NCBI GenBank assembly: GCA_030068075.1
Contig: CM057825.1
Location: 120,455,434-120,519,433, forward strand
Reading direction: 5' to 3'
DNA length: 64,000 bases
Source of the DNA: Paguma larvata
Lineage: Eukaryota > Chordata > Mammalia > Carnivora > Viverridae
Numbering within the stretch: the first letter of the stretch is position 1; every line of letters begins with the position of its first letter. A program made the translations under genes and the position numbers. Under the pieces are notes generated by a model. That model did no database searches, had not been told where the DNA came from, and worked only from the letters and a program-made list of their open reading frames with translations. Of the stretch, positions 52,501 through 55,500 are shown one piece after another.

Positions 52501-55500
52501 GGCCCAAGACAGTAACTCGATACATTATGTTCTCTCAGAAAGGGGCGCTTTTTTGTCCTGTTTGCTGCTAAGAGGCGGAATTAAGCACCCCGTCTGCCCG
52601 TCTTCTTCACCTTCTATCGGAGGTTCTTCCTTTTTTAGCCCTCGACTTTTTTTTCTGGACGTCATATTCCCAGGTTATATTTCTTTGAAGTATGGACTGA
52701 TTAAAAAAAAGAAAAAAAGAAAAAAAAAAAAACATTTGACAATGAGTCCAGAGACCTCAGCTCTCCCCGGAAGTGCTATGTGGCCAAGGGCAAGTCACGC
52801 ATCACTTCCGGGCCTCAGTTTCCCGCTGATGGGGAGAGCCGTGGGACTCCAACGTCCCTTCCGATTCTGACATTGTGTTTCCAAACATCACACTGTTCCC
52901 TGCTCAGGCGACAAAGGACTTTACGGCGCACAAGCTAGCGACACAGCCGACCAATAGCAATGTGTGAAAAATTTACCAGCCTGTGATGATTTGGCCAGCT
53001 TCGTCTAATCTCTTCATCCTGTGTTATTTCTGACCCACCTGCCCCATTCATCTCTGCTCGGGAAGGTTGTGCGAGTTGAACCGCTAGGAAGGTTTCTTTT
53101 GGCTCCTTTTTTGGTTCAGACTGAGTTCAGGATATTAATTTTGCTGTTTATTTCCCTCAGATCATTGGAGGGCCAGAACACTAGAGTCTTTGAGAGGCAT
53201 CATTTTCTCAATCTGATAGCTCTGTAGATTTTCTTTCTTATCTGCTATTTCTTGAAACTCAAGAAAACTTGGTACAGTAATTCCCCAAACAGTTTCGTTT
53301 TACGTGGATGTGACTCAGAGTCGCTTCTTTGAATTTATAAGGATGATCTTTCAGAAGATGGAAATTATGGAGCTGAGGCACAACGGCGGTAATTTTTGGT
53401 GGAGGTCAGGATAGCGTAAATTTCCTGGACTTGTTCAGAGACAGAACCCCGTAAGCTACAACCAATGCATGAGGCATACAGGATGGAAGAGCAGGGCGGT
53501 AAGTAACGGGGATACGAATAACTCTCTAGATTTGTTGCTCTGCTAGGACACCGGACGTCCTTCCTAGGCCAACTTTCCCGATCGGTCAGAAAGCAAAAGA
53601 AGGCCTCCTAAACGGCACCCACCCATCATGACCACAGAACGTCAAAGACGGCAAACAGAGGGCTGCCCCCAGAGAAAGGACCCTCAAGAAGAAGAAGCGG
53701 CGGTTAACTTTAACTCAGATGATGGCAAAGCCCGAAGAACCGGAAGACGAAGGGGACGTCAAGGAAGGCTGTCGCGGAGACCCAGGCAGTAGCCCAGAAA
53801 GTTCCTTAGGAGAAATCTAAGTTCTCAGGAACTGTGCAGCGGGTGTAGTGTCTGTGTTAGAGCCTGAAGAACCATGAAAGCGAAGCCTTTAAGAAACAGT
53901 TCAAAGGACGGAATATTACTTGGCCACGAAAAAGGACGGAATCTTGCCATCTGCCACAACGCAGACGGACCTCGAGGGCAGGGTGCTAAGCGAAATAAGT
54001 TAGATGGAGAAAGACAAATAAAGACCATACGATTTCACTTATAAGTGGAATCTAAAAAAACAAATGAATACAACAACAGCAAAGAGAGAAAGAGACGCGG
54101 ATGGAGAACATGATGTTGGGTGCCGGGGGGGGGGGGGGAGAAGGGGCAGAACGGACGCAGGGGAGGAAGAGAGACAAGCTCACAAAATAAATAAGCCGCG
54201 GGGATGAAAGGTACACCACTGGGAATCTAGTCGATGACAGCATAACACGCTCATCACGGCGAGCGTTTCACAGTGTATCTGAGTGCCCGGTCCTGAGGCT
54301 GCCCACCTGAAGCTAATCTCCTCTAACAGGTCAGCTATACTTCAACTACAAAAACATGTACGTGTACATCAAAAAAGAGCAGGAGGAGCCCCTGTTCTTC
54401 CCAACTTGCCTCAGAGGCCTCCCGGGCCGGCTCGCCCGGTAAATCTCAAGCTGGCGGACGAATGTCAGCTCCGCGTCGTACAGAACCACATATCTGGGCT
54501 CCACCTCGTGCAGCACCCTCGTCAGGGCGTAGGGGTCGCTGCAGCCCAGAGCGGGTGGATGATGGTGAGCGGGTCTTTCAGGATTCCGTAAGCGGCATCG
54601 GATGACAAGTTCAAGTCGAATTCCTCACGCTTGATTTCTCCCAAGGAACTCTCTGGGCTACTGCCTGGGTCTCCGCGACAGCCTTCCTTGACGTCCCCTC
54701 CGTCTTCCGGTTCTTCGGGCTTTGCCATCATCTGAGTTAAAGTTAACCGTCGCTTCTTCTTCTTGAGGGTCCTTTCTCTGGGGGCAGCCCTCTGTTTGCC
54801 GTGGGGGTCTTTAGGCTTTTTGTGAGACTTCGCCACTCTCCTCGCACCGTCCTCATTTCTTAACTTCAGCCACACGTCCTCGGCCTTGCTGTCCTTCTCA
54901 AAGGTCTTCCTGTAGAGCTTCAATAAAAAGGCCTCCGCCCCGATGGTGATGTACTCTCTCAGCTGGGAACAGGTTCGCTCATCGCTTGCACAAATCAGGA
55001 CCTGACCTAAAATGACAAAACAGCGAGGTTACTGTTACCTCGCGTGGCCCCCGCGCCCTGTTCTCCGTCGGCTGGCTCGCCTCCTCCCCCCATAAAGAAG
55101 ACACGTCTGACCCCTTGGCGCTAAAGATACGGCATTTACGATTTGTTTAAAAAGGGTCTCAGAGGCTTATCAAATGCTTTCTCTCTCTGACAGGATTAGT
55201 GAAATCCTTTGAGTAAAGTTGAAGCCAAAAACATTTAGTCTTCCGAACGCATAGCTGTGGTATAATGGAGGCTTTGCAGAAGCTCTTTTTAATTAATAAT
55301 TTTCCAGCGGGTTTTATCTACCAAAATAAATTCCAAAGGGATTAGAGAGTCAAATGTTAAATATTAAATCGTTAAAAAAAAAAAGTGACTCCTCTCTGTC
55401 TCTCTAGATGGAGATGATTTTCTAGGCTTAAGAACAGCAGAAGAAATCTCAGAGAAGACTGGTATCTATAATCTGGGATGGGCTCTATGTAAGAAAAAAA

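Follow-up and report, generated by a model that had tools for sequence, protein, structure and literature searches.

Part of ERCC4 exon 8 copied in inverted orientation into the following intron of Paguma larvata, probably a young local inverted duplication

The right part of the window, by which we mean the whole 64,000-nt stretch of DNA analyzed here, is occupied on the minus strand by ERCC4, the gene for the XPF endonuclease. Comparison with the human protein placed ERCC4 exons 4 to 11 within the window, with the first three exons in the adjoining 10 kb; residues 405-557 and 560-659 of the human XPF query were compared with a PDB chain. The two pieces of exon 8 matched the PDB with E values of 2.8e-71 and 7.8e-59, the second piece including exons 9 and 10, and the splice sites put the start of exon 9 at 51942. 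The aligned parts of the exons other than exon 8 are open and 79-100% identical to their human counterparts. Whole-gene decay of ERCC4 was therefore rejected, since only exon 8 was seen broken. A single AATAAA/ATTAAA motif is present in intron 8, at an offset of 1258 from the donor (2460 of the 2467 nt scanned on the transcribed strand). In human ERCC4, an intron 8 change that triggers early polyadenylation is described in PMC10318981.

Intron 8 carries, in inverted orientation, a copy of an internal part of the preceding exon (Table 1). The two arms are aligned with no gap over 170 nt and are identical at 166 positions, and the inverted match, with an E value of 6e-80 in a BLAST search against the window, is not a chance one. 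The four differences between copy and exon, given here in the ERCC4 sense, are 53700 G/A, 53750 A/G, 53799 A/G, and 53808 A/G; all are transitions, and they are spread along the tract. No homology above that of resampled sequence was detected past either end of the 170 nt, where the observed flank scores, taken outward of the repeat ends, were reached in 28/60 and 16/60 resamplings of the flanks, and the ends of the inverted copy are sharp. A leftward extension of the copy by a few residues (PQN), suggested by tblastn, was dropped because the flank there is no better than resampled sequence. A sequence-only reading of this DNA had already assigned the repeat to exon 8 of ERCC4 and both arms to one primary transcript, and our analysis supports both assignments. 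The same reading had described 168 ungapped bases with 164 identities. That count was reproduced over those bases and the match is real, but the extent given was two bases short of the full repeat at one end. Its 815-base separation of the arms was measured again at the same value, and the last 223 bases of exon 8, which it had placed beyond the arm, correspond to 54410-54632.

Table 1. Features of the ERCC4 exon 8 region, in coordinates of the window.
Feature	Position	Strand	Basis or remark
ERCC4 exon 8 (597 nt; lacks one nt of the reading frame)	54410..55006	-	two-frame tblastn to human XPF; PDB matches; acceptor and donor
ERCC4 intron 8, 2467 nt	51943..54409	-	donor and acceptor sequences
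GC-type 5' splice site of intron 8, GAG/GCAAGT, in the loop of the predicted hairpin	54404..54409	-	donor sequence
Partial exon 8 copy, inverted	53648..53817	+	intron 8 nucleotides +593 to +762; runs antisense to the exon within the pre-mRNA
Source arm within exon 8	54633..54802	-	exon positions 205-374 of 597; encodes the basic KKKKRR linker stretch
Spacer (predicted loop), 815 nt	53818..54632	-	last 223 nt of exon 8, donor of intron 8, the old L1-like repeat, and ~90 nt with no repeat matches beside the copy
Old repeat, presumably L1-like (resembles L1 3' end), outside the copied unit	53907..54240	+	matches to other places in the genome

The old repeat in the spacer, which we take to be L1-like, was matched at 39 other places in the genome, the best of them 80% identical (40 places were scored of 3905 first-look candidates). 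The earliest of these matches started at query base 90 and the latest ended at query base 423, so that the repeat begins approximately 90 nt from the inverted copy. Being at most 80% identical to any of these scored places, compared with 98% identity between the copy and the exon, the repeat is far older than the copy. The loop also includes a run of 14 G at 54125-54138, a likely weak spot for sequencing and assembly.

A search of the whole genome (2.437 Gb in 1492 contigs) with the 170-mer returned two places, the copy and exon 8, and the same two places were obtained with the exon 8 protein as a query; the left flank of the copy was found at one place. No processed pseudogene of the copied stretch was found in the genome by either DNA or protein. 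An origin of the copy as a processed pseudogene was also disfavored, since one source and one copy were found and neither poly(A) nor a target-site duplication was seen. For background, inverted pairs of at least 60 nt with at least 85% identity and no more than 20 kb apart were collected from 264 kb of sequence, comprising the window, its neighboring 40 kb, and four samples of 40 kb each from other parts of the genome. The ERCC4 pair was the only one of the 15 pairs obtained with a copy depth of 1 in both arms. Six further pairs with a gap of no more than 5 kb had depths of 41 to 120 and are interspersed repeats, and the remaining eight had gaps above 5 kb and a depth above 2 in both arms. 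The ERCC4 copy is a reverse-complement copy that lies near its source and is not built of interspersed repeats, the makeup of a local inverted duplication.

The order of changes in the copy and the exon was read from a comparison set of 34 relatives, out of 59 candidate proteins (the best 86% identical), which together with the human protein gives 35 sequences. The D of an EPED motif is present in both the exon and the copy and in none of the 35 other proteins. At the residue that follows it, the copy has E, in common with 30 of the 35, and the exon has G, in common with two others, while the remaining proteins have D (two) or A (one). By parsimony alone, the copy would have arisen from the lineage's own gene after the first change (to D) and before the second (to G), an order drawn from an alignment in which a few distant rows align loosely at the EPED site. 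From the residues common to the copy, the exon, and the relatives, we take the inverted copy to be a real and fairly recent event rather than a fresh artefact. With the exon assumed to evolve at half the neutral rate, the 4 differences in 170 nt suggest an age of roughly 7 million years if that rate is 2.2e-9 per site per year and of 10 million years if it is 1.5e-9, within a range of some 2 to 27 million years.

The best explanation of these observations, to which we assign a probability of about 0.65, is a lineage-specific local inverted duplication of a known class, produced by template switching and leaving a hairpin that the cell tolerates. The inverted copy, its sharp ends, and its single candidate source are seen directly; the switch itself we infer. 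During replication or break repair in ERCC4 intron 8, synthesis would have moved to the opposite strand at a distance of approximately 0.8 kb, taken up 170 bases of exon 8 in reverse, and then returned. Among 733 human inversions outside mobile-element events analyzed in PMC12350158, inverted duplications were the commonest type (277 events, median 284 bp), and they mostly showed 1-15 bp of microhomology and were read as replicative. Such microhomology is what usually marks a replicative switch; at the ERCC4 junctions, zero matches were scored, a value that follows from the maximal alignment of the arms and is uninformative by construction. Against template switching stands the length of the copy, which is far greater than that of typical short-range template switches; in the template-switch model of PMC7954356, the expected length was set at 10. 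Overall, the copying mechanism appears ordinary and the position unusual, and the inverted duplication is real and probably young.

The main rival, which we consider unlikely, is a patch templated by RNA, in which a double-strand break in intron 8 would have been filled with the reverse transcript of an ERCC4 RNA fragment. The copied stretch consists of exonic sequence only, like mRNA, and since it comes entirely from within one exon, a DNA source and an RNA source cannot be told apart by its content. Class 2 templated sequence insertions, as described in PMC5110952, likewise have neither a target-site duplication nor poly(A), like the copy found here. However, the insertions of this class are described there as coming from distant regions, whereas the source of the ERCC4 copy is 0.8 kb away, and the copy contains no exon-exon junction that would be a positive mark of RNA origin. 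Template switching is favored over the RNA patch by this local source.

An artefact of the assembly or the library, in which a chimeric inverted join put a false second copy into the intron, was weighed together with a defect in exon 8 itself. The exon has a one-base frameshift at approximately 54544-54557, between the repeat arms: the encoded protein follows human XPF as far as HPL in a first frame and from LGCSDPY onward in a second. At this site, 30 of the 34 relatives have LLGC, and a genome search with the exon 8 protein did not find a second ERCC4 exon 8 able to take over. The frameshift represents either a base error in the assembly or a broken allele of the animal; frameshifts in human exon 8 occur in patients, as reported in PMC10318981. 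Base or assembly errors may thus occur here, and, with the frameshift located between the arms, an assembly problem could to some degree extend across the entire hairpin. N letters in 5 of 20 sampled 10-kb stretches give a weak sign of gaps. The window, in turn, contains zero N. Moreover, a fresh artefact is expected to be identical to its source, yet four transitions separate the copy from the exon, at one of which the copy retains the common residue that the exon has lost, and a single such single-copy pair in the 264 kb scanned gives no hint of an assembly rich in them. We therefore regard a false copy as quite unlikely, some weight being retained for it on account of the frameshift.

Inverted repeats as near to each other as these could convert one another, and an old inverted copy held identical to the exon by gene conversion would be in keeping with the abrupt ends of the 170-nt tract. 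An older and longer copy should, however, leave some diverged homology beside the tract, and the flanks carry none above resampled sequence; with four ordinary transitions spread along a tract with sharp ends, no positive sign of conversion was found, and we give this explanation very little probability. Retroposition of an ERCC4 RNA fragment by LINE-1, possibly joined to the L1-like tail beside it in one chimera, is suggested by the succession along the plus strand of the copy in the ERCC4 sense and then the L1-like repeat, presumably oriented on the plus strand as well, but it is disfavored to the point of being scarcely credible, because poly(A) is absent at the end of the copy, the 40-nt flanks of the copy have no common word of at least 5 nt that could be a target-site duplication, and the repeat is both separated from the copy by some 90 nt and far older than it.

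The pre-mRNA therefore bears the exon arm together with a complementary intronic arm, and, as the copy is transcribed ahead of the intron 8 acceptor, a near-perfect 170-bp hairpin could form before intron 8 is removed. When 53500-55100 is folded to its predicted energy minimum, 169 of the 170 arm positions pair in register, in line with the sequence-only reading, which had held that the transcript can fold into a duplex. The energy of the fold is -745 kcal/mol with the copy compared to -525 to -538 kcal/mol in all 10 folds with a shuffled copy, that is, 207-220 kcal/mol lower. A search of 53000-55600 against Rfam gave zero matches at the gathering score.

The donor of intron 8 is placed by the prediction in the loop of this hairpin. 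GC 5' splice sites are a weak type. Here, the GC donor seems to be old and part of a conserved GC-AG intron, judging from the protein sequences: 33 of the 34 relatives reach the end of exon 8, and all 33 continue into the intron as LRQV, in keeping with AGG CAR GTN (codons inferred from the proteins). In human XPF, R604 is joined directly to VYF, and human ERCC4 exon 8 ends at c.1811 according to PMC10318981. In equilibrium predictions for naked RNA, which are unreliable at the kilobase scale and may not hold in cells, the mean unpaired probability of the 5' splice site (54404-54412) was 0.088 with the copy present, compared to 0.345-0.363 with the copy deleted, at all 5 sizes of the folded segment, and 0.359-0.363 in each of 8 copy shuffles. 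The change was found mainly at 54404-54407, since the exon side of the donor (54408-54412) was already mostly paired with the copy deleted. At the 3' splice site, there was no clear change (0.360 with the copy and 0.329-0.433 in the 8 shuffles). Of the consequences put forward as plausible in the sequence-only reading, namely exon 8 skipping or delayed splicing, ADAR editing in the coding sequence, and local inversion or gene conversion, an effect on splicing, through covering of the exon 8 GC 5' splice site by the hairpin, thus has some predicted support. With respect to editing, 39 of the 56 adenosines in the exon arm would alter the protein if edited, and 11 of the 56 are in a favored context.

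We infer that the hairpin is most likely tolerated, with helicases and ADAR loosening the duplex and the intron being removed. Its main consequence would then be that splicing at the GC donor becomes slower or more leaky, together with some A-to-I editing of the unspliced RNA. A stronger possibility, to which we attach very little likelihood, is that a young self-targeting hairpin in an essential repair gene turns part of the exon into double-stranded RNA before the GC donor is used, lowering the output of XPF or recoding its basic linker through ADAR; should the frameshift in exon 8 be real as well, the two together would mark a mammal that is losing or remodeling XPF. We saw no evidence that the hairpin has been selected for a function. 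Selection of the hairpin as a regulatory element, one that adjusts ERCC4 splicing or supplies small RNAs, would agree with the predicted covering of the GC donor (0.088 compared to 0.345-0.363) and with the human intron 8 change c.1811+326C>T, reported in PMC10318981 to reduce XPF and cause disease, but it is barely probable given the lack of an Rfam match in 53000-55600, the pairing of the exon side of the donor under the same model even with the copy deleted, and the unreliability of equilibrium folds of kilobase RNA.

The predicted hairpin in ERCC4 offers a natural test case for the effect of a near-perfect 170-bp duplex between a coding exon and the next intron on splicing and editing, in an essential gene and at a GC donor. 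If tolerated, it sets a bound on the exon-intron pairing that mammalian splicing can absorb. In human ERCC4, one intron 8 change causes xeroderma pigmentosum, as described in PMC10318981.

Among known systems, the inverted duplications described among human long-read structural variants (PMC12350158) resemble the ERCC4 copy in that a few hundred bases are duplicated in reverse and in belonging to a class thought to be replicative. Unlike the human polymorphisms described there, the piece duplicated here is coding and lies in the next intron of the same gene. The template switches of the four-point model (PMC7954356, PMC8794818) are similar in that one event yields a reverse-complement copy capable of forming a hairpin; however, the reach modeled in these studies is tens to hundreds of nucleotides with much shorter pieces, compared to 170 nt and an 815-nt spacer in ERCC4. 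The small inverted triplications of PMC13334657 include an inverted piece of similar size (~160 bp on average) and are tied to replication errors, but they are described as DUP/INV/DUP structures with a spacer of ~30 bp, whereas in ERCC4 a lone inverted copy is separated from its source by 815 nt. Class 2 templated sequence insertions (PMC5110952) share with the ERCC4 copy an insert that has neither a target-site duplication nor poly(A), and they differ in the distant origin reported for them, the ERCC4 source being local, 815 nt away.

At the level of the transcript, inverted Alu pairs in pre-mRNA, as treated in PMC11263572, likewise form a long intramolecular duplex and can affect splicing, circular RNA, and ADAR editing; in contrast to such pairs, one arm of the predicted ERCC4 hairpin belongs to a coding exon, and no repeat element makes up either arm. 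Plant microRNA genes of inverted-duplication origin, described in PMC3237417, also have a hairpin-forming transcript that derives from an inverted duplication, whereas the gene considered here is mammalian and its hairpin is a prediction from the sequence.
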